Of a DNA stretch of 53,925 bases, positions 27,555 through 42,409 are shown piece by piece. Within the stretch, counting starts at the first letter, position 1. Each line of letters begins with the position of its first letter. The notes beneath the pieces are model-generated. The model was not told the origin of the DNA, did not search any database, and saw only the letters and a list, made by a program, of their open reading frames with translations. The DNA is from Spirochaetota bacterium (GTDB lineage: Bacteria; Spirochaetota; Spirochaetia; JABEVK01), in NCBI GenBank assembly GCA_020049045.1, contig JAIFLN010000084.1:1-53925 (forward strand), given 5' to 3'. A program made the translations under genes and the position numbers.

Positions 27555-28826
27555 ATGGAAACGATTGTTCTCGCCTCTACATCGTCCTCCATCCTCGAAC
27601 GTATGGACCGACAAGTTCCGGTGGCCATGAGAAAAACGGCTACCGTGACCCAGTCGGCTCCCGGCGAGTTCTTTCTTGATTTTCTCCGCTATGAAATTCC
27701 TGATCTTGTCGTGCTTCATGCCGAAGAAGATCCTAAATCGCTCGTTCCTTTTTTTGAGGGTCTCGAAGAAGATCCCTGGCTTGATTCCGTCGGCATCATT
27801 TTGGTTGTCCCCGATGTCGAAGAAGTGATTGAACTTTACCAAGGTTACAACATCGCCTATTTTCTCAATGAATTCGAATTGGACCGCAACTTGGGCCGCG
27901 TTATGACCATTTTGGATGACAAAAGGGAGTTCCTGAATTACGACGGTATCATCAAGAAAATCACTTCTCTTTCGGGGGAATTGATCCTCGAGACCGATCT
28001 TCTTTTGGTTCAATACTACTCCTCCTTGTTTTCCAATTATCTTTTCAAGGAAGGTCTGATTGACCGCGGCAAGAAATTTTCGGTGAAATTAGCTCTGGAA
28101 GAGCTGCTGACCAACGCTATGGAACACGGCAATGCGGGTATCACCTACGACGAAAAGACCCGTTTGCAGGAAGAACTCAAGTCGGTTCAGGACTTTGTGG
28201 AAACAAGGATGCAGGAAGTTCCCTGGAAGGGTCGTCAGGTGACTTTGGAGTATAACATCGGTCCTCTGACAAGCCGTTTCGGCATTACTGATCAGGGTGA
28301 AGGATTTGATACCTCTAAGCTGCCGACCCGCAAGGACATGATGAGCCTAGACCTCTCCCATGGCCGCGGCATTTTTATGTCGATGCATAGTGCAGACACC
28401 TTGGTCTACAACCAAAAAGGAAACCACGTTACGGTGGAGTTTGGTCACAACGGCAAGGCGGAACGAATCGTTCCACCTGGTTTCATCCAAACTGAACCGA
28501 GAATTTTGGCAGCTGGTGACCTTGTCTTCAAAGAAGACGCTACAGGGGACCATATCTACTATATCGTTTCGGGTGAATACGATGTCTTTGTCGGGGGAAA
28601 GCACATTGCCAGGCTGACTCCCCGCGATGTGTTTATGGGCGAAATGTCATTCCTCTTGGGAAACCGAAGAACTGCCACTGTTATTGCCGCTACCACAGGA
28701 AAACTTGTCGAAATCAGCCGGCAGGCGTTTACCGAGGCCGTCAAGCAATACCCCAATTACGGCATCTTTCTCTCGAAGATGCTGGCCCGGCGTCTCCGTG
28801 ACAATAACCGCCGGTACGCCAGTTGA
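27555..28826 (+). CDS. RsbW-like ATPase fused to a cyclic-nucleotide-binding domain
   Basis: A 423-residue soluble signalling protein. Residues 1-125 look like a receiver fold but lack a clear phospho-acceptor Asp motif. Residues 150-305 form a HATPase_c_2 domain like anti-sigma factor kinases (RsbW/SpoIIAB), with KLALEELLTNAMEHGNAG as N-box, DQGEGFD as G1 and GRGIFMSMHSAD as G2. Residues 315-415 are a CRP-type cNMP-binding domain; its phosphate-binding cassette GEMSFLLGNRRTATV keeps the Gly-Glu and Arg that contact cyclic nucleotide. There is no DNA-binding domain. A reasonable model is a kinase of an anti-sigma-factor antagonist, controlled by cAMP. The adenylate cyclase at 35584 is a possible source. 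Confidence 0.85.
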   Translation: METIVLASTSSSILERMDRQVPVAMRKTATVTQSAPGEFFLDFLRYEIPDLVVLHAEEDPKSLVPFFEGLEEDPWLDSVGIILVVPDVEEVIELYQGYNIAYFLNEFELDRNLGRVMTILDDKREFLNYDGIIKKITSLSGELILETDLLLVQYYSSLFSNYLFKEGLIDRGKKFSVKLALEELLTNAMEHGNAGITYDEKTRLQEELKSVQDFVETRMQEVPWKGRQVTLEYNIGPLTSRFGITDQGEGFDTSKLPTRKDMMSLDLSHGRGIFMSMHSADTLVYNQKGNHVTVEFGHNGKAERIVPPGFIQTEPRILAAGDLVFKEDATGDHIYYIVSGEYDVFVGGKHIARLTPRDVFMGEMSFLLGNRRTATVIAATTGKLVEISRQAFTEAVKQYPNYGIFLSKMLARRLRDNNRRYAS

Positions 28827-32620: not shown

Positions 32621-35587
32621 ATGAAGAACACCATTCTCAAGGGAAGTGCCGGGCTGATAATTCTCCTTTTGCTGGGGGGAACTTTCTGGCTTCTTCGCGA
32701 TGGCTTTCTTCTCAACCCGTTTCAAGCAGACCTTCCGTTTGAGTATCCCGGATTTGCAGCTGCTGATGCAGGCAATACCTATCTGATTGACCGGTCCCTC
32801 AAAAGAATCGTCAAGACGAATGCAGACGGCGAGCTCGCCTGGACCATACAGGGTGGCAGCCGGTCACCGGGAACCTTCTTCTTTGCCGATGAGCTGACCA
32901 TCGACGACAAGGGTTTTGTCTATGTTCTCAACCGGGTGCCGGATGCTCCGGGCTTCTACACAGTTTTAACTCAAATTCTGAGGTTTAAACCGGACGGCAC
33001 GTTCGATCAAGTGATCGCTGAAAAAGCCTATGGTCTGGATGAACGCTTGCCAACGTTGGTACAGCGTGGCCAATGGCACTCGCTCCAGACAAGCGGGGAC
33101 CAGATCCGTTGGTTTGACTCCAATGCCAAAAACTTGATTCTCCATGGGGGTCGTGCCGGTTCCATCACCGAAACTGTCATTATCCCGGATTATCCCGCGG
33201 ATCTGATGGTGCCCTCCGCAGCGGTTCTCCCCGATGGCGGAACCGTCGTAGTGACCAAACAGGGGCGTATCACCCGGATCGATGCCGGCAGCCAAACAAA
33301 CCTTTACGACGCCTCGGGGTCGGAAAGCACATCCGTACCCTGGAAGATCCGGGCTTTTGAAAACCGGCTGTTCTTTACTGACCTTGCCAGAAACGGCGTG
33401 GCGGAACTGTTGGCCGACGGTACAGCACCGCTTCGGTTTTCAACCAACGAAGCAACAAGCTACAGCCTTTCCTCGGGGCAAGAAGTCCTCGCAACTACTG
33501 GTGACGCGGGACCAAAATTCTTCCGGCCTGAAGGAACCTCGGTGGCAGCCCCCGAGTCGGCTCGATATTCGTTAGCCACAGGAACACTCCATTTGGGCTT
33601 ATGGCTGTTGTTGGCGGCAGTTCTGGTAGTGTTGGTCTTTCTGGGACGCCTGGTCTATGTCGAGGGGTTCAAACGGGTGATTCCCCCCTTTCTCAAGACC
33701 GTTGCGGGAGTCATTTTACTGACAGCAATCGTTGGGGGTCTGGTCTCTACCATGATTCTCAACAACTTCAGCCAACGCTATTCCACGGAAGTTCTGAACA
33801 AAATCACTCAGTTGGTCCACCTGGTTCCCCGTATCATTGACGCCGATCATTTCACCGCTGTGACCGAGCCTTCTCAGTTCGGGGGTCCAGAGTACTTGGC
33901 GTTGCGCCAACAGATCATCGGGGCCATCTACGGTGACAAATCTCAGGAAAACCAGGGATTGTACTTTGCCCTTCACCGGGTCTCCGGATCGAATTTGTCC
34001 ACCTTTATGTACCTGAACGGCGATACAACTATCCATCACCCCTTCAGTTACCTGAATGATCCTGAAGGCCCCTACCAGAAGGCGCTCAAAGGAGAGACGG
34101 TGGCCCAATACGCTCTCGATGCCTGGGGAAGCTGGATGTATTCCACTGGTCCCATTCGAGACAAAGCGGGAACCATTGTGGGTGTTTTTGAAATGGGGGG
34201 AGACCTCTACAGCTTCACCCAGGAGAACAACCGCCTTATTCAGAATCTGCTGGTGAGCATTCTGACCGTGCTGGTGATCTTCCTGCTGGTGTTGGTTGAG
34301 CTGACCTTCCTTCAAGATCAACTGCGAAAAAGATCCCTGGAGCAAGTTCTAGCCGATCAGGGGCTCAAGCCCCGACGCATCGAAGATGTGTTTCACCGTG
34401 TCTTTCTGGTCCGGTCTGTCACAGGTCTGTTTTTTGTCGCCGCTTCGGTTTCTCTGCTGTTCCTTCCTCTGATGATGAAGGGTTTCTACCAGCCGCTTTG
34501 GGGCCTGCCGGAAAACGTTGTTTACGGTCTTCCTGTGTCTTTGCGTCTGTTCTTCTTTGGTTTAGGCACTGTCTTGGGCGGAAATCTGACACGCCGCTGG
34601 GGTTGGCGACCGGTCTTTCTGGCCGGTCTGGCAGTTTCTGCGCTGGGCTTGATTGTTGCGGCTCTGTCAGCAGACATGACAATGTTCCTGATTTCCAGCA
34701 TCGCCATTGGCCTGGGTGCGGGATTCGGTATGATCGGTATGCGTTCGCTGGTGAATGCCGAGGCCGACCCGGACACCAAGGCCACGGCATATAGTCACTT
34801 CTATGCGGGGATCATCGCAGGCACCAACGTAGGTGTTATTGTCGGAAGCGCTTTGGCTGATATGATCGGCTTTGCCAACGTGTTCTGGCTGGCCCTTGCC
34901 CTTACCGTCTCAACACTTTTTATTGTTCTCAAACTCTTTCCCAAGCCGGCCAAAGTATCGCCCCCTGCCGCAGGTGACCTCCGTATCGGCCAAGCTCTTG
35001 GGATGTTTTTCGCCAACCCTGCAGTGGGACGTTTTGCACTGTTGATTATCCTTCCGGTCTATGTCGCAAGCATGGTTCTGTATTTTTTTCTGCCGGTCTT
35101 TGCCCAGGAACAGGGAGTCAACAACGCTGATATCGGCCGAATCTTCCTTCTTAACGGATTGGTCGTCGTGTATTTGGGCCCGGCGCTGAGCCAGTTTCTG
35201 CAATCCAAGCTGGGAATCCGCCGTTCTCTGCTAACTTCTTCGGTGCTTTGGACCCTCAGTCTGCTACCCTTTGTCATCACCGGCAGCCTGGCAGGCCTGG
35301 TGGCCACGGTTATCCTGATGGGGATTGCCGAAGGAGTTGCGGCGGTCGCTCAGAATGAGCACCTGCTTTCGCTTCCGGTTTCCGGGACTGTCGGAAACGA
35401 CCGCGCGGCGGGCTTTTTCGAGGTTGTAGCAAAAATCGGGGAGACGGCAGCACCGATTCTGATCGGATTTGCCATGCTGCTGGGTCCCCAATGGGGCATC
35501 GGGCTGGTAACCGGAGTCTTGGCCCTGGCACTCGTGGTTTTCTGGATCACCGACAAGACCGCACAGCCTAGGGAGGCTCGTTCGTGA
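32621..35587 (+). CDS. Fusion protein: propeller-like and Cache-like sensor joined to an MFS transporter
   Basis: A 988-residue membrane protein. In order: TM helix (about 8-26), an extracytoplasmic beta-propeller-like region (about 40-320; repeated 'DDKGFVYVLN' and 'RFKPDGTFD' units like NHL/SMP-30 repeats), TM (about 322-345), TM (about 360-381), an extracytoplasmic Cache-like domain (about 382-543; LYFALHRVSG, FSYLNDP, DAWGSWMYSTGPI), TM (about 544-562), a short cytoplasmic linker, and a 12-helix MFS-type permease (about 590-985). The sensor half is a clear paralogue of the next gene's. A transporter with its own two-part sensor suggests substrate- or signal-gated transport; the substrate is unknown. 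The stop overlaps the next start (GTGA). Confidence 0.85.
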   Translation: MKNTILKGSAGLIILLLLGGTFWLLRDGFLLNPFQADLPFEYPGFAAADAGNTYLIDRSLKRIVKTNADGELAWTIQGGSRSPGTFFFADELTIDDKGFVYVLNRVPDAPGFYTVLTQILRFKPDGTFDQVIAEKAYGLDERLPTLVQRGQWHSLQTSGDQIRWFDSNAKNLILHGGRAGSITETVIIPDYPADLMVPSAAVLPDGGTVVVTKQGRITRIDAGSQTNLYDASGSESTSVPWKIRAFENRLFFTDLARNGVAELLADGTAPLRFSTNEATSYSLSSGQEVLATTGDAGPKFFRPEGTSVAAPESARYSLATGTLHLGLWLLLAAVLVVLVFLGRLVYVEGFKRVIPPFLKTVAGVILLTAIVGGLVSTMILNNFSQRYSTEVLNKITQLVHLVPRIIDADHFTAVTEPSQFGGPEYLALRQQIIGAIYGDKSQENQGLYFALHRVSGSNLSTFMYLNGDTTIHHPFSYLNDPEGPYQKALKGETVAQYALDAWGSWMYSTGPIRDKAGTIVGVFEMGGDLYSFTQENNRLIQNLLVSILTVLVIFLLVLVELTFLQDQLRKRSLEQVLADQGLKPRRIEDVFHRVFLVRSVTGLFFVAASVSLLFLPLMMKGFYQPLWGLPENVVYGLPVSLRLFFFGLGTVLGGNLTRRWGWRPVFLAGLAVSALGLIVAALSADMTMFLISSIAIGLGAGFGMIGMRSLVNAEADPDTKATAYSHFYAGIIAGTNVGVIVGSALADMIGFANVFWLALALTVSTLFIVLKLFPKPAKVSPPAAGDLRIGQALGMFFANPAVGRFALLIILPVYVASMVLYFFLPVFAQEQGVNNADIGRIFLLNGLVVVYLGPALSQFLQSKLGIRRSLLTSSVLWTLSLLPFVITGSLAGLVATVILMGIAEGVAAVAQNEHLLSLPVSGTVGNDRAAGFFEVVAKIGETAAPILIGFAMLLGPQWGIGLVTGVLALALVVFWITDKTAQPREARS

Positions 35588-38364
35588 AGCGTTCCACCAG
35601 TGTCCTGATCATTCTGCTGCTTCTGGCTGCCCTTGGTGGATTTCTCACCATTTTGTATCCTCAACAGCTTTTTCAGGTTCCATGGCAATCAGAATTTGCC
35701 CTGGAATACCCTTCTTTTGCCACGATGGACGGAGTTGGTGATACTTTTGTCATCGACCGCTCACTCAGTCGAATTCGAAAAATAGCACCCGATGGGTCTT
35801 TTGTTTTTCAGATTGACGGACAAAACCGGACTCCGGGCAAACTTTTTTACGCCGTCGAGTTAGTCGTCGACGACAGGGGCTACCTCTACGTTCTCAATCA
35901 GGTGATGCAGGAAAATGGTTTTTATACCGAACGGGAAGAAATTCTTCGATACGATCCTGCTGGCAACTTCGACAGGATTGTCGGATCAAGAGTTTACAGT
36001 CCCGAAGAAATCAACAACAACAACGTAACCCGGGGACGGTTGACAGGACTTGCCTTCGCAGCCCGTAAAGTCTCCTGGTATGAATTGGGAAAAGCAGGGG
36101 TCATTGAAAATTCGGTCGACACCGATACCTGGCGGCTGGAACAAAAGTTGGTGGTGGTCTGGCCTGAGGCAATGGTTCATATCGCCTCTGTGGTCAGAAC
36201 CGACAGCCGCACCCTGGTGTTTTCCACCAAGCAAGGTCTCATACTCCGGCAAGTCGGCCTGGCTACCGAAACTCTCTACTCAGGCGATGGGGAGTCGCGT
36301 CCTGGAGACCTCTCGGTTCCCTGGTGGGTCGGTGCTGATGCCCAGGGAAATTTGCTGTTCAGTGATCTGACCCGCAGCAGAATCCTTCGACGCGATGCTC
36401 AAGGTGCTCTCACGGTGGTTCTCGACAGCGCTCGTTACAAAGAGGCTACCGGCGACAGTTTTCCTTACATTTACTACACGTTCTCGGTGACGGGAGACGG
36501 CCGGGTGGTAACCACCAATGACCTGTCTGTGCTGGGTGTCAATCCACAAGGTCGCCTTGACAGCATTGTTACAGGAGGACACTTTCCCGTTCTTCTGCTG
36601 GCCGTCAGGGCTTTTCTGTGGCTTGGACTGGTGGCGGCTGCAGCAGCCCTGGTCATACTGGTCTTCCTGGTTTACAAGAATCTGTTCAGGCGCCGCGTTT
36701 CACTGATTTTCAAACAGCTGCTGGTTACTCTCCCGTTGATGACCGCCATTTTGATGGTGGTGGCCGGTACACTGATCGATAGTTTCACGGCCCGATACGA
36801 GGCTCAGTCCATCGATCTGATCAGTCAAGCGATTCAGGTCATTGCCCAGAAAATCGATACAGACAGGCTGGACCGGATCACAAAGCAGTCAGACTTCATG
36901 AATGCGGATTACCAGTACATCCGAAACCAACTGCACACTGCCCTCAACCACAACCAGGATGCCTGGAACAGCAAGTTCTACTTTGCCCTCCACCGGTTGA
37001 GAGACGGCAAGATCTACACCTCCATGTACCTCAATGACGGAGTGGGATTGTTCCAACCTTATACCTACCTCAACGATCCGACCAATTTGTACTGGAAGGC
37101 CGTTCAGGGCAAGATCGCCACCAGCAAGGCCTCGGACGCCTGGGGTACCTGGGTCTATGGGGTTGGTCCTATTTCCAATTCCCAGGGACAGGTTTCGGCC
37201 CTATTGGAAGTGGGCCGAGACCTTTATGGGTTCCAGAAGGAAACTGATCAGCTGCTCTGGTCAATGGTGCCATATGTCGGAGTTGGCTTTGGGGTGCTGA
37301 TTCTGCTGTTCGTTCTCTCAACCTGGCTGTTCCTGGCTCCCTTGCGCAGCCTAAGGTCAGGTGTGAACAACATTGCTCAGGGCAAGTGGGACACCAATCT
37401 CCCCATACGGGGGAGCGATGAAGTTGCTGACCTCACCGTAGTCTTCAACAGAATGACTCAGTACATACGAAACTACATCGATGAAATCATGGCCCTCAGC
37501 CAAGGCTACCGCCGCTTTGTTCCGCAACAGTTTCTGGTGCATCTCCAAAGAGAAAGCGTGAAGGAGATTCAGCTTGGCGACCAGATTCAACGGGAAATGA
37601 GTGTGATGTTCACTGACATCCGGTCGTTCACCAGCATCAGTGAGAAGATGACTCCCAAGGAGAACTTCGACTTTCTGAACCGGTACTTGAGCCTGGTAGG
37701 ACCCGAGGTCCGCAAGCACGAAGGTTTTGTAGACAAGTACATCGGCGATGCCATCATGGCGCTTTTTCCCCGCAGTCCCGACGACGCCCTTCAAGCAGCC
37801 ATTGAAATCATCGACCTTCTCGATGAGTTCAACAGCCGGCAGCTCGCCGAGGGAATGCCCGAAATCCGCATCGGCCTGGGCATTCATACCGGCCTGTTGA
37901 TGCTGGGAATTCTGGGAGAAGAAGAGCGGCTGGAGGGCACGGTCATCAGCGACAACGTCAATCTGGCAAGCCGTCTGGAAGGACTGACCAAGTTTTTTGA
38001 TGCCTCCATTATTGTCAGCGAAACGACCTATGCCGGAGTAAAAAACCATGACAGGTACCACTTCCGGAATTTAGGGAAGGTTAAAGTCAAGGGAAAGAAA
38101 GAGCCTGTGGGCATCTATGAGGTTCTCGATGGCCTTCCCGCTGATATCAAGGTCAAGAAAGCCAAGGCTCAGCAGAATTTGGAAGCTGGTATCCGTTTCT
38201 ACCAGCTGCAGGATTTTGAAGGTGCCAAACAAGAATTCCAGACTGCTTTGGAACTTTCTCCCGAGGATACCACCGTCAAAGTGTATTTGACGCTGTGCCG
38301 CCACGCTCTCGCCAATCCACCTACCGGTGAATGGACCGGGGCCATTACCATGAATGCAAAATAG
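35584..38364 (+). CDS. Class III adenylate cyclase with propeller-like and Cache-like sensor
   Basis: A 926-residue membrane enzyme predicted to make cAMP. TM (about 7-26), a propeller-like extracytoplasmic region (about 38-335), TM (343-364), TM (378-398), a Cache-like domain (399-560; FYFALHRLRDGK, YTYLNDP, DAWGTWVYGVGPI), TM (563-584), HAMP (585-640), the signalling helix with RRFVPQQFL, and the cyclase domain (about 670-840). FTDIRSFT and GDAIMALF supply the two metal Asp, DKYIGD the adenine-selecting Lys, and ISDNVNLASR the adenine Asp plus catalytic Asn and Arg, so ATP is the likely substrate. A C-terminal TPR pair ends it. The start is GTG, overlapping the preceding stop codon. Confidence 0.93.
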   Translation: MKRSTSVLIILLLLAALGGFLTILYPQQLFQVPWQSEFALEYPSFATMDGVGDTFVIDRSLSRIRKIAPDGSFVFQIDGQNRTPGKLFYAVELVVDDRGYLYVLNQVMQENGFYTEREEILRYDPAGNFDRIVGSRVYSPEEINNNNVTRGRLTGLAFAARKVSWYELGKAGVIENSVDTDTWRLEQKLVVVWPEAMVHIASVVRTDSRTLVFSTKQGLILRQVGLATETLYSGDGESRPGDLSVPWWVGADAQGNLLFSDLTRSRILRRDAQGALTVVLDSARYKEATGDSFPYIYYTFSVTGDGRVVTTNDLSVLGVNPQGRLDSIVTGGHFPVLLLAVRAFLWLGLVAAAAALVILVFLVYKNLFRRRVSLIFKQLLVTLPLMTAILMVVAGTLIDSFTARYEAQSIDLISQAIQVIAQKIDTDRLDRITKQSDFMNADYQYIRNQLHTALNHNQDAWNSKFYFALHRLRDGKIYTSMYLNDGVGLFQPYTYLNDPTNLYWKAVQGKIATSKASDAWGTWVYGVGPISNSQGQVSALLEVGRDLYGFQKETDQLLWSMVPYVGVGFGVLILLFVLSTWLFLAPLRSLRSGVNNIAQGKWDTNLPIRGSDEVADLTVVFNRMTQYIRNYIDEIMALSQGYRRFVPQQFLVHLQRESVKEIQLGDQIQREMSVMFTDIRSFTSISEKMTPKENFDFLNRYLSLVGPEVRKHEGFVDKYIGDAIMALFPRSPDDALQAAIEIIDLLDEFNSRQLAEGMPEIRIGLGIHTGLLMLGILGEEERLEGTVISDNVNLASRLEGLTKFFDASIIVSETTYAGVKNHDRYHFRNLGKVKVKGKKEPVGIYEVLDGLPADIKVKKAKAQQNLEAGIRFYQLQDFEGAKQEFQTALELSPEDTTVKVYLTLCRHALANPPTGEWTGAITMNAK

Positions 38365-38373
38365 GAGAGTCCC

Positions 38374-39411
38374 ATGGCTCATCGCCTTCTGTTGTGTACG
38401 TCCTGGTTTCGTCCTCAACTTGGTTTGGACATGGGAACCGATCTCCTGGACCGTTTGAACCGGAAAGGGCTGAAGCTGGTAGGAGTGATTGGTCCTGATG
38501 AGGAAAAGCTGGCTTCGGAGGCTCGGGACAGAGGTTTGCCTTACTTTCCCCTGCTGCCGGAGTTTCAATGGACCTCCCAGACTTTGCGGCGCCGTTTGAC
38601 CGAAGATTTCTCACTCGCTTCCAGAATGGAACAGTGGGTCGATCCCATCCGCAGACTCAATGCCGAGCTCGGAGTTCTATACTTTGCGACTTGGATTCCA
38701 CCCGCCTTGCTGGCTGTACCGCAGAGAGGCTGGCTGAATTTTCATCCGGCTCCGCTGCCCGAACTACGCGGATTCCTTCCAGAAGACTTTGCCGTACTTT
38801 GGGGCTGGAAAACCATGCCTGGTACCCTGCATGTCGCGACAGAGGAAATCGATGAAGGGCCCATCCTCCTGAAAAGCCGCCCTGCCCGCTTGAACCGATG
38901 GGACACTCCAGACTCAGTCATGCAGAAAGTCGGTCAGACCGCACGTAGCTGCCTAGCCTCGGGAATCAAGGATTATCTGAATGGTCAAGCAGTACTTGTC
39001 CAGCAGAAACAGGTACCAGGGTTCTTCGCTGGGTATACGGAATTTTACCCTGAGTCGTATTTAAACTGGGAAACCGATGATCATGCCCAGCTTCACCGGA
39101 GGTTTCAGACCTTTCGGGGACAACACCACCGGGTGGAACTCAAGGCGCGGTTTGACGACGGCATCTGGCAGGTAGAGACTCTGGAATTGCACCGGTGTCG
39201 GGCCAAAGGTCGGCCTGGAGACCTTCTAGCAACCTGGAACCAGTTGAAGCTCATCAGAACGACGCAGGGTGTTGCGTTGGTCGGGTGCAAGCCCTTTGTG
39301 AAAGACCCTGGGTTGGCTTCCCACCTCGACCGGCAACAACAACAGATTATTCCAGCGGGTTCGCGGCCTCAGAAATACCATGTTTCTGAGTTCCGCCACC
39401 TGATCCGTTAA
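38374..39411 (+). CDS. Formyltransferase-family protein
   Basis: A 345-residue protein of the formyltransferase fold. The catalytic Asn and His are in WLNFHPAPLPELRG (near residues 112-114) and the Asp is in EEIDEGPIL (about 155), so folate-dependent formyl transfer or its reverse is plausible. A C-terminal domain (about 225-340) resembles the Fmt C-terminal half only loosely. It is not a normal methionyl-tRNA formyltransferase because the N-terminus lacks the usual Fmt opening and the chain is long in the loops; the acceptor is unknown. AGGAGAG lies before the ATG, nine bases after the cyclase stop, so it may be in that operon. Confidence 0.75.
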   Translation: MAHRLLLCTSWFRPQLGLDMGTDLLDRLNRKGLKLVGVIGPDEEKLASEARDRGLPYFPLLPEFQWTSQTLRRRLTEDFSLASRMEQWVDPIRRLNAELGVLYFATWIPPALLAVPQRGWLNFHPAPLPELRGFLPEDFAVLWGWKTMPGTLHVATEEIDEGPILLKSRPARLNRWDTPDSVMQKVGQTARSCLASGIKDYLNGQAVLVQQKQVPGFFAGYTEFYPESYLNWETDDHAQLHRRFQTFRGQHHRVELKARFDDGIWQVETLELHRCRAKGRPGDLLATWNQLKLIRTTQGVALVGCKPFVKDPGLASHLDRQQQQIIPAGSRPQKYHVSEFRHLIR

Positions 39412-39430: not shown

Positions 39431-42409
39431 TCAGCCTGCGGTGAACACCTTGTGGCGGCCTGCTGCCTTTGCCTGATAAAGGGCTTGATCTGCCTGCTGA
39501 AGAAGATCCGTAAACGATCGGTCAGAAGTTGGTATTTCGGCAGAAACCCCTACCGAGATCGTCACATGATCGACAGCGGAAGCCATCTGATGGGGCATGG
39601 CCAATTCGTCAATCGATTCCATAAGACGTTCTGCCACAATGCGCGCACCTTCAAGATCGGTATCATGGAGCAGAACGACAAATTCTTCTCCCCCATAGCG
39701 GGCACAAAAGTCGGTGGTTCTCAGCAGGCTGGCAGCCAAAGTTCCTGCTACCGCTTTGAGGCAGGCATCACCGGCCAGATGCCCATAGAAGTCGTTGTAC
39801 CTTTTGAAGTCATCGATATCCATCATCAGTACTGCCATCGGCTGGCGCTGCCGCAACGCTCTTGCCCACTCCTCAGAGATCCAAGTGTCCAATGCACGGC
39901 GGTTGGGAATTCCGGTCAATCCATCGAGCCGTGCCAACTGGTCGAGGCGACTGTTTGCCTCTTCCAGCTGGGAACGCAGAACCTCAAGCTCTGCCACTTT
40001 ATTCGACAAAAACCGGGTGATTCGAGATTTTTGGAAGAGGTACACCATGGTTACCAGAATGGCAGCATAAGCCAATACGGCGTACCAGGATGCCCAGGGA
40101 GCCGCTTCCACCTCCAAAGTCAGAGTCTGAGTCGATTCTGCCCAGACCTCGGCGGGATTGGCACCCCGAAAACGGAACCGGTAGGTTCCGGGCCAGAGGT
40201 TGGTATAAGTAGCTTCATGGCGTGTTCCGGCTTCAATCCAGGTCTTGTCGAACCCTTCCAGCTGATAGGCATAGAGGTTTTTCGCTGGATCGCGGAAATC
40301 GAGGGCAGAAAAGCTGAACGTAACGGCATTTTCCTGCCAGCCAAGGGTCAAGCGGGGAGCGATGGGACGAGACTGTCCAAGCACCTGCACGTCGGTGAGC
40401 GCAACCAGCGGCTGGGCATCGGCCATCGAAAGCCTGCCTGGATAGATCAGGAGCACCCCTTTGAGGCCCCCGAAGACCAATTCCCCCTCAGCGGATTTTA
40501 AGGAACCTGATGAGAATTCTGCCGAGGTTAAGCCGTCTGCCATCGTATAACGCCGAAAGGTTCGGCTTTCAGGCCGGAAAGAGAACAGACCATTGGCCGA
40601 TGCGATCCAGAGTAATCCTGCCGAATCCTCGAGTGCTGAGTACACAGACAAACTGGTCAGGCCCTCTTTCAAGCCAAAATTCTCCAGCATTCCCGTCTCA
40701 GGATCGAGTCTGGACAGCCCTCCGCCGTTGGTGACAATCCAGAACCTACCTTGAGAATCCTCCAGAAGACTCCGTACGGTATTGCTGGGAAGCGTTTTGG
40801 GATCCTCTGGATTGTAACGCCAAACCTGAAAATCATCAGTTTCTGGACGATACAAGGCCAAACCTCCGTTGGTCCCCACCCAAATTCGTTCCTTTCGGTC
40901 CTGATGAACGAAATAGACTAAGTTGTCGGGCAAGCTACCGGGAACCTTGGCGTCGGCCAGATAATGGGTTGCAGGACCGGGAGTTCCTGGCTTAGGCATC
41001 TTCACAACCCCTGAACGGTAAGTACCAAACCAGAATTGTCCTTTTTGGTCGATGGCGAGAGAGTTGACGACCTCATCCGGGAGAGAATCGGCGGCCTTCA
41101 TATCGACAGACCACCTTTGAACAGCCCCCGTAGCAGGATTAACGATGCTGACACCCCCGTTGGTACCGAGCCACAACTGACCTTGGGAGTCTTCAGTGAT
41201 GCAATTGATGATGTCGTTGGACAACGAACGGGGATTCTTGGCATCGTGTTTCCAGGTTTTCTGAACCCCATGGGGATCCACTTGCACCAAACCTCCGTTG
41301 TAAACCCCGATCCACAACGAGCCGTCCTTGGTCTGATAGAGAGTCGGAACTTTTCCAATCGTGGGGAGATACTGAAACTGCTGCTGACGGGGATTATACC
41401 GGCTAACTCCCCCGCCGTTGGTTGCTACCCAGATCAGACCGCCACGATCCTGAAAAGTACCGTAAACCACATTGTGTGCCAGGGTGTCACTTCGCAAAGG
41501 ATCGTTGCGGAAGGTGAAGCTGGTCCCTGTGGAAGGACGGAAAACGACCAAACCACCACCCCAGGTTGACACATGCAAGTCGCCGGCCTCTCCGCGGTTG
41601 AGTCCGAACAACCGCTCATCGGAAAGCGGAAACACTTCATAATCGCCGTTGGCAGGGTTGAGGCGGACCAGGCCCTGACCCCAAACCGCCAGCCAAAGAC
41701 TGGTATCACCCGGAAGGCGCAGGGAACCCATCACACCCCCGGTTGGAAAGACTTTGCCGGGAAAAACCTGGGGAAACCGAAGGAGCTTGTCTTGGACGGC
41801 ATCATACAAATCAAGACCACCGCTGGATCCGACCCAAAGCCTGCCCTGGCCATCTTCGGCCATAGTCCGTACCGTCTTACCCGATAAACCGTCATTCGAG
41901 CCCTCGGAGTAGGGAAATGTCTGAAAGGTTCCCTTCGCCTCGTCCATACGGTTCAGACCATCGAGGGTTCCTACCCAGAGTTTGCCCCTGCCATCGCGGT
42001 AGATTCGCGTCACGACATTGTGGGAAAGGCTGCCAGGAACTCCCTCTTGATGACGGAAGGAAGTGAAGTTCTCTGTGGCGATATCAAAACGGTCAAGGCC
42101 CCCGTAAGTCCCCAGCCAAAGAGTCTTTCCGTGATCCAAGGTCATGGTCTGAATCAAATTGTGGCTTAAGGTATTTCTGGAAAACGGTTCTTTCTGCCAG
42201 ACCCGCATTGTATAGCCATCCCAACGGTTCAAACCACTCTGAGTGCTGAACCAAAGGTACCCGGTTTCATCCTGTGCAATGGCCGTGACCGAAGAACCAG
42301 AAAGCCCCTCTTCACGACCAAAAGACTCCCAAGGCGAGAGAGGTTCGAGAGAGAACCCGAGTTCAGACATCAACAGAAGAATCCCAAGGAAACCAACGGC
42401 AAAACGCAT
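39431..42409 (-). CDS. Propeller-Y_Y_Y sensor diguanylate cyclase
   Basis: A 992-residue membrane protein expected to make c-di-GMP. A signal peptide (about 1-20) is followed by about a dozen two-component regulator propeller units (about 25-650; repeats such as LWFSTQSGLNRWDG, LWLGTYGGLDRFD, LWVGTLDGLNRMD), a Y_Y_Y domain (about 690-770), one TM helix (about 780-800), a coiled coil (about 805-830) and a GGDEF domain (about 835-990). The active site is GGEEF, and RTTD five residues upstream is an allosteric I-site, so it should be active and product-inhibited. The promoter lies directly at the start codon, without a Shine-Dalgarno sequence. Confidence 0.94.
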   Translation of the reverse strand: MRFAVGFLGILLLMSELGFSLEPLSPWESFGREEGLSGSSVTAIAQDETGYLWFSTQSGLNRWDGYTMRVWQKEPFSRNTLSHNLIQTMTLDHGKTLWLGTYGGLDRFDIATENFTSFRHQEGVPGSLSHNVVTRIYRDGRGKLWVGTLDGLNRMDEAKGTFQTFPYSEGSNDGLSGKTVRTMAEDGQGRLWVGSSGGLDLYDAVQDKLLRFPQVFPGKVFPTGGVMGSLRLPGDTSLWLAVWGQGLVRLNPANGDYEVFPLSDERLFGLNRGEAGDLHVSTWGGGLVVFRPSTGTSFTFRNDPLRSDTLAHNVVYGTFQDRGGLIWVATNGGGVSRYNPRQQQFQYLPTIGKVPTLYQTKDGSLWIGVYNGGLVQVDPHGVQKTWKHDAKNPRSLSNDIINCITEDSQGQLWLGTNGGVSIVNPATGAVQRWSVDMKAADSLPDEVVNSLAIDQKGQFWFGTYRSGVVKMPKPGTPGPATHYLADAKVPGSLPDNLVYFVHQDRKERIWVGTNGGLALYRPETDDFQVWRYNPEDPKTLPSNTVRSLLEDSQGRFWIVTNGGGLSRLDPETGMLENFGLKEGLTSLSVYSALEDSAGLLWIASANGLFSFRPESRTFRRYTMADGLTSAEFSSGSLKSAEGELVFGGLKGVLLIYPGRLSMADAQPLVALTDVQVLGQSRPIAPRLTLGWQENAVTFSFSALDFRDPAKNLYAYQLEGFDKTWIEAGTRHEATYTNLWPGTYRFRFRGANPAEVWAESTQTLTLEVEAAPWASWYAVLAYAAILVTMVYLFQKSRITRFLSNKVAELEVLRSQLEEANSRLDQLARLDGLTGIPNRRALDTWISEEWARALRQRQPMAVLMMDIDDFKRYNDFYGHLAGDACLKAVAGTLAASLLRTTDFCARYGGEEFVVLLHDTDLEGARIVAERLMESIDELAMPHQMASAVDHVTISVGVSAEIPTSDRSFTDLLQQADQALYQAKAAGRHKVFTAG

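Follow-up and report, generated by a model that had tools for sequence, protein, structure and literature searches.

A Spirochaetota contig (GenBank JAIFLN010000084.1, positions 1 to 53,925, forward strand; the whole 53,925-nucleotide stretch is called the window here) contains two overlapping genes in which the same kind of extracytoplasmic receptor module precedes two different outputs: a predicted major facilitator superfamily (MFS) carrier in the first gene (sensor-MFS) and a predicted class III adenylate cyclase in the second (sensor-cyclase). Our preferred reading, to which we give a probability of about one half, is that a receptor-controlled, probably export-type MFS protein and a receptor cyclase answer one signal; we infer the common ligand, the gating, the direction of efflux and the substrate chemistry. 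Because the arrangement recurs beside enzymes that modify small molecules in many distant relatives, the pair looks like a real and apparently undescribed coupling of outside sensing to transport.

Two overlapping genes and their common sensor

The genes run in the same direction with intact open reading frames, at the coordinates of the initial annotation (Table 1). They overlap by four bases, the GTG start of sensor-cyclase lying within the stop codon of sensor-MFS, which suggests translational coupling. BLASTP aligns residues 33-564 of sensor-MFS with residues 33-584 of sensor-cyclase at 175 identities in 556 columns (31%; 254 bits; E 3e-75), well past chance. The paralogy over some 560 residues claimed in the initial annotation is thereby upheld, and every local identity motif that it listed falls inside the alignment. 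The host genome holds this one pair and no other copy of the sensor. Chance similarity and a frameshift or assembly fusion are ruled out by intact reading frames in more than 20 genomes.

Table 1. Features of the three-gene unit, in window coordinates
Feature	Position	Strand	Evidence
Sensor-MFS gene, 988 aa: TM, NHL-like propeller, TM-TM, Cache-like domain, TM, 12-helix MFS	32621..35587	+	Pfam, AlphaFold2, Foldseek, orthologues
All-beta propeller of sensor-MFS, residues 37-315	32729..33565	+	AlphaFold2 secondary structure; NHL fold matched via the paralogue's model
TM2 and TM3 with long helix into Cache-like domain, sensor-MFS residues 318-405	33572..33835	+	AlphaFold2 model
Cache-like domain of sensor-MFS, residues 406-528	33836..34204	+	Model; weak CitA/DcuS profile match; conserved columns
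TM4 and cytoplasmic extension joining sensor to predicted transporter, residues 529-579	34205..34357	+	AlphaFold2 model
Predicted MFS transporter domain, 12 helices, residues 593-987	34397..35581	+	Pfam MFS_1; Foldseek VMAT2, NorA, MdfA, SotB
GTGA overlap of stop and start codons	35584..35587	+	ORF coordinates; suggests coupling
Sensor-cyclase gene, 926 aa: paralogous sensor followed by HAMP, class III cyclase and weak TPR	35584..38364	+	Pfam, AlphaFold2 model, Foldseek
NHL-like propeller of sensor-cyclase, residues 37-333	35692..36582	+	Model; Foldseek TRIM71 and Thin NHL domains
Cache-like domain of sensor-cyclase, residues 424-546	36853..37221	+	Model; weak CitA/DcuS profile match; conserved columns
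HAMP domain	37321..37470	+	Pfam PF00672 E 2.1e-10
Predicted class III cyclase domain; D678, D722, K718/T786, N793, R797	37591..38106	+	Pfam Guanylate_cyc E 4e-19; CyaB/CyaC folds; motif positions
Weak TPR-like C-terminal segment	38179..38280	+	Sub-threshold Pfam TPR matches
Formyltransferase-family gene, 345 aa, third gene of the unit; N122, H124, D160 invariant	38374..39411	+	Pfam Formyl_trans_N E 1.3e-11; PDB relatives; alignment of nine; synteny

The two proteins were modelled independently with AlphaFold2 (pLDDT 85.8 for sensor-MFS and 85.5 for sensor-cyclase). Both models run through TM1, an all-beta propeller, TM2-TM3, a long helix into a Cache-like sheet, and TM4. The initial annotation had named different folds of the N-terminal halves, or a lack of intact transporter helices, as outcomes that would speak against it. 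Neither was found: the secondary-structure elements stand in the same order in both models, and the MFS half retains 12 helices and superposes on solved MFS structures.

As modelled, the propeller is of the all-beta NHL type with NHL-like blades; that of sensor-cyclase matches the NHL domains of TRIM71 and Thin in Foldseek (TM-score by target 0.61-0.68), and a relative has a Pfam NHL match (locus L016, 9137-11857). The domain between TM3 and TM4 is called Cache-like from the models, both of which fit the topology of a long N-terminal helix and a PAS-like sheet between two TM helices, and from PDB profile matches to CitA/DcuS sensors that are weak (E 0.01-0.6); it has no Pfam match. Cache structures are absent from the best 50 Foldseek matches of either full model, probably because the larger domains dominate the ranking.

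Outputs and the third gene

The C-terminal half of sensor-MFS has, by its model, an MFS fold. Pfam MFS_1 covers residues 602-912 (E 9.7e-27; 94 bits against a cut-off of 33.4), and Foldseek aligns this half with VMAT2, NorA, MdfA and SotB at a TM-score by target of about 0.8 (0.81 for VMAT2 and NorA). Together with the HAMP and cyclase matches of its partner (Table 1), this bears out the picture of two proteins that diverge into an intact MFS domain and an intact cyclase. The sensor-MFS architecture corresponds to no catalogued Pfam or NCBIfam family, in agreement with its early description as non-standard. As for the transport output then proposed, the complete fold is confirmed and carrier function is predicted, with fold relatives that indicate efflux over nutrient uptake; profile relatives of the domain are drug transporters, VMAT and NorA.

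Two canonical DHA motifs are not kept. Motif A (G-x3-D-[RK]-x-G-[RK], between TM2 and TM3) is replaced by GGNLTRRWGWRPVF in the window protein, and its acidic residue is absent there and from most of 24 relatives; at motif C (GP in TM5) the window protein has GIIAGTNVGVIVGSALADMIG, and it and all relatives keep a glycine ladder and have no proline. With these residues missing, efflux by the standard DHA mechanism is not assured, and the MFS part may be receptor-like or otherwise altered. Motif-A loss was rejected as a special mark of the family: a loose regular-expression control on the host's MFS proteins was also patchy, so the loss serves only as a caution.

The sensor-cyclase is, by its catalytic motifs, a class III adenylate cyclase. 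Its cyclase domain resembles the CyaB and CyaC folds (Foldseek), and the class III residues are all present, with D678 and D722 presumably binding metal, K718/T786 forming the purine pair and N793 and R797 stabilising the transition state. The proposed HAMP-adenylate cyclase-TPR tail stands for its first two parts; the TPR matches are weak and below the Pfam threshold. The 4-Mb host genome is rich in cAMP-type signalling, with 20 class III cyclase domain matches and 12 cyclic-nucleotide-binding domain matches available to read cAMP. A Pycsar anti-phage system was considered and rejected, as the PycC model matches only via the generic cyclase domain and the adjacent genes have no cyclic-nucleotide-binding effector.

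Several other genes touch on cyclic nucleotides. About 4 kb upstream of sensor-MFS, 27555-28826 (+) encodes a 423-aa protein with an anti-sigma-type HATPase_c_2 and a cyclic-nucleotide-binding domain, possibly a cAMP-controlled regulator kinase. A same-genus genome (L016, 6562-17159) carries a tandem run of four sensor-cyclases and lacks an NHL/Cache-MFS; in its 853- and 895-aa copies the cyclase domain is either degenerate or not recognised by Pfam, so these may be regulatory or pseudo-cyclase partners. Next to two sensor-cyclases at L054, 6206-9064 encodes a 952-aa protein in which cyclic-nucleotide-binding domains and a cupin are combined with a TLC ATP/ADP-transporter-like region, a further link between a transporter and cyclic nucleotides.

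Ten bases after sensor-cyclase begins a formyltransferase-family gene that was overlooked when the locus was described as a two-gene unit; the tandem pair stands, within a three-gene operon that is followed by a convergent gene starting at 39431. From its sequence, the product belongs to the 10-formyl-THF-dependent formyltransferase family with catalytic residues intact, the Asn-His-Asp set being unchanged in an alignment of nine relatives. Its relatives include sugar-amine, methionyl-tRNA and GAR formyltransferases, and it falls far under every specific NCBIfam cut-off. Methionyl-tRNA formyltransferase was rejected as its identity (55 bits against the fmt equivalog cut-off of 201.5). The convergent gene (39431-42409, -) encodes a two-component-type propeller (Reg_prop, Y_Y_Y) fused to GGDEF, a further propeller sensor with a nucleotide-messenger output.

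Recurrence, descent and a possible shared signal

Sensor-MFS loci were gathered by profile searches of class, phylum and genome contigs; in the genome contigs, a single-sequence nucleotide-pattern search with sensor-MFS gave no match and a four-row profile gave five loci. About 26 NHL/Cache-MFS loci were found, nearly all in Spirochaetota; those outside are in Chromatium weissei, C. okenii and one Pseudomonadaceae MAG. The search of other genomes for the fusion beside cyclases, suggested at the outset, thus shows it to be recurrent: a sensor-cyclase is the immediate neighbour in 12 loci (that of L102 cut by the contig end) and lies nearby in two more. The order MFS-cyclase-formyltransferase is found in eight genomes (the window, L015, L049, L050, L051, L100, L101 and L103), whose proteins are about 25-37% identical. 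Eight loci have a DUF2156/LPG_synthase_C-type GNAT gene in place of the formyltransferase (Pfam; homologue 2hqy, E 1e-42), again an amine/acyl-type enzyme. In five loci of one genus (L066-L069, L118) the gene directly before sensor-MFS is always a member of one family (about 450 aa; unmatched in Pfam and NCBIfam), and the gene directly after it encodes a HAMP-SpoIIE phosphatase.

Chromatium weissei has the formyltransferase and sensor-MFS with no sensor-cyclase or other sensor copy, so the sensor pair is not obligatory and the link of MFS to enzyme may be more basic than that of MFS to cyclase. Searches of the order that includes C. weissei and of the class to which the Pseudomonadaceae MAG belongs gave no further members, a pattern suggestive of transfer from spirochaetes into these lineages. 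What look like relics of the system were seen in a same-family genome (L017, 2056-2467; sensor fragments with stops) and in C. okenii (L052, 8607-12783; sensor-MFS and formyltransferase broken into several frames).

These neighbourhoods bear on an unlikely alternative in which the MFS part is a receptor and not a carrier: it would report a cytoplasmic or transported substrate via the sensor, the paired sensors would assemble, and MFS occupancy would tune the cyclase. Homologous sensors encoded by co-directional, overlapping genes could heterodimerise, the motif-A acidic residue is lost in most members, and transporter-type receptors are known (CbrA, UhpC). However, the five loci with a SpoIIE phosphatase instead of a cyclase and the solitary sensor of C. 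weissei count against it, as does an MFS core that is complete, with polar TM residues conserved among formyltransferase-type members (those of loci with that enzyme).

Bacterial receptor modules swap among kinases, cyclases, phosphatases and chemoreceptors. The present sensor ends in HAMP-cyclase, MFS or HisKA-HATPase-REC-Hpt, the last in hybrid histidine kinases at L057 (427-3819) and L065 (7592-11443); the MFS domain therefore occupies the usual output position. When outputs are mapped on a tree of 61 sensors, 10 changes of label are required, compared with 23 for shuffled labels; outputs are clustered yet have been swapped several times. For the formyltransferase-type set a single split into MFS and cyclase sensors is not rejected (p-AU 0.395), and in the Spirochaetales/Pseudomonadaceae group the two types form separate clades, leaving a recent lineage-specific duplication unsupported. 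The receptor duplication seen in the initial annotation holds, then, as tandem paralogues of old origin.

In a quick tree, every MFS domain that bears a sensor falls into one clade (98% SH-aLRT), from which the host's other MFS proteins are excluded. Since proteins of 822-839 aa, with a pair of shorter sensor domains in the same layout (TM1-sensor-TM2-TM3-sensor-TM4), also belong to this clade, a particular MFS lineage seems to bear extracytoplasmic sensors of variable type. Among host MFS proteins with long reading frames, checked for a sensor, one of 784 aa has a C-terminal extension and no sensor. The double-sensor type (L016, 1818-4286; L054, 1277-3796; L113, 2309-4822) lies near tandem sensor-cyclases; its neighbours are genes for a TrpX-like binding protein and an ornithine-racemase-like product, joined in two of the loci by D-Ala-D-Ala-ligase-like genes.

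Uptake is the opposite possibility, and to us an improbable one: the Cache domain or propeller would capture or sense an outside nutrient and drive its import by the MFS protein, with the cyclase reporting that the nutrient is available. Nutrients are what Cache receptors usually detect, importing what is sensed is the simplest logic, and the TrpX-like binding protein would fit; but the fold and profile relatives of the MFS domain are exporters and antiporters, and the companion enzymes are modifying, not catabolic.

The initial proposal that one signal reaches both transport and cAMP finds indirect support in formyltransferase-type pairs. Across the eight pairs, Cache identity is 0.478 within a genome's own pair against 0.431 for mismatched genomes (permutation p 0.0005), also exceeding the between-genome values of 0.452 (MFS-MFS) and 0.435 (cyclase-cyclase). 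Correcting for composition and centring rows and columns leaves the excess in place (p 0.0002); the propeller shows a smaller one (p 0.03) and the TM segments none (p ~0.4). Shared descent or gene conversion could contribute to the excess. With both outputs taken together, conservation reaches at least 14 of the 16 sequences in 27 Cache columns and all 16 at Y448, N466, D500 and W505. In DUF2156-type pairs other Cache domains are closer than the own partner's, which restricts the claim to the formyltransferase type present in the window.

Such residues, kept with both outputs, also make it very unlikely that the MFS sensor is an uncoupled relic of recombination with the neighbouring cyclase gene: adjacent paralogues do favour recombination, and coupling of sensor to MFS is itself deduced, but full-length sensors are retained over about 26 loci at 15-37% identity and members of the same MFS clade carry a second type of sensor.

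Proposed mechanism and known systems

In our preferred reading, the three-gene unit would link an external chemical signal to transport and cAMP. The receptor module would have been duplicated long ago, its last TM helix feeding HAMP and a class III adenylate cyclase in one copy and, in the other, leading straight into an MFS carrier in the usual place of a kinase, phosphatase or cyclase. Both Cache domains would bind the same ligand, or ligands of one class, and thereby alter the tilt or packing of TM3/TM4. This movement would set cAMP output in the cyclase twin and bias the alternating-access cycle in the MFS twin, so that the signal would start, stop or grade transport. An exporter is favoured by fold and sequence kin among drug/amine antiporters and by companion genes for modifying enzymes. 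An amine-type compound may be the cargo after modification by the enzyme encoded alongside, a formyltransferase here and DUF2156/GNAT elsewhere, and the cyclase would report to the cell the presence of signal or product outside.

We offer a broader version tentatively, as rather doubtful: a dedicated MFS lineage gated by its attached extracytoplasmic receptor would be a ligand-gated secondary transporter and, with the twin receptor-cyclase and a cargo-modifying enzyme, would form a make-export-sense circuit, possibly for a cell-to-cell signal.

A carrier at the output position would mean that TM signals of the kind used for kinases can likewise govern how fast a secondary transporter works, and receptor-gated transport could be tested with ready-made twin constructs that have the same sensor and two outputs. 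Spirochaetes are a phylum rich in cyclases with few ligands known; if the adjacent enzyme makes the cargo, the operon would represent an unexplored small-molecule signalling or protection circuit there.

In the open-access literature we found no description of an extracytoplasmic receptor module with MFS at the output position, nor of the paired operon; for sensor-MFS fusions only the SK-MFS family name and the SLC5 transceptors were found. The arrangement is thus apparently undescribed, while transporter-receptor fusions are already known. The Sensor Kinase-MFS Fusion (SK-MFS) family, TCDB 2.A.1.34, is listed with function unknown (PMC3924187). It similarly has an MFS domain and a signal-transduction module in one polypeptide; by its name the partner is a sensor kinase, whereas here it is an extracytoplasmic receptor module, and Pfam and NCBIfam find in sensor-MFS no kinase domain that would place it in that family. 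The CbrA/CrbS SLC5-STAC histidine kinases are described as 'transceptors' that likewise combine transporter and receptor functions in one protein; there an N-terminal transporter domain is the sensor feeding the kinase, whereas here the receptor is N-terminal and the MFS domain C-terminal, at the output position (PMC13022988, PMC7096432).

Sensor-cyclase shares an extracytoplasmic sensor, TM helix, HAMP and catalytic domain with Cache/HAMP class III adenylate cyclases and Cache histidine kinases (CitA/DcuS), and differs in the extra NHL-type propeller on its own TM hairpin before the Cache domain and in having a twin with MFS output. Sensor-MFS has the 12-helix fold of the DHA antiporters NorA, MdfA, SotB and VMAT2, preceded by a receptor of about 580 residues. 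UhpC, an MFS glucose-6-phosphate receptor that acts on a histidine kinase, is likewise an MFS protein inside a signalling pathway; it has no extra sensor domain, whereas sensor-MFS bears an added receptor module.
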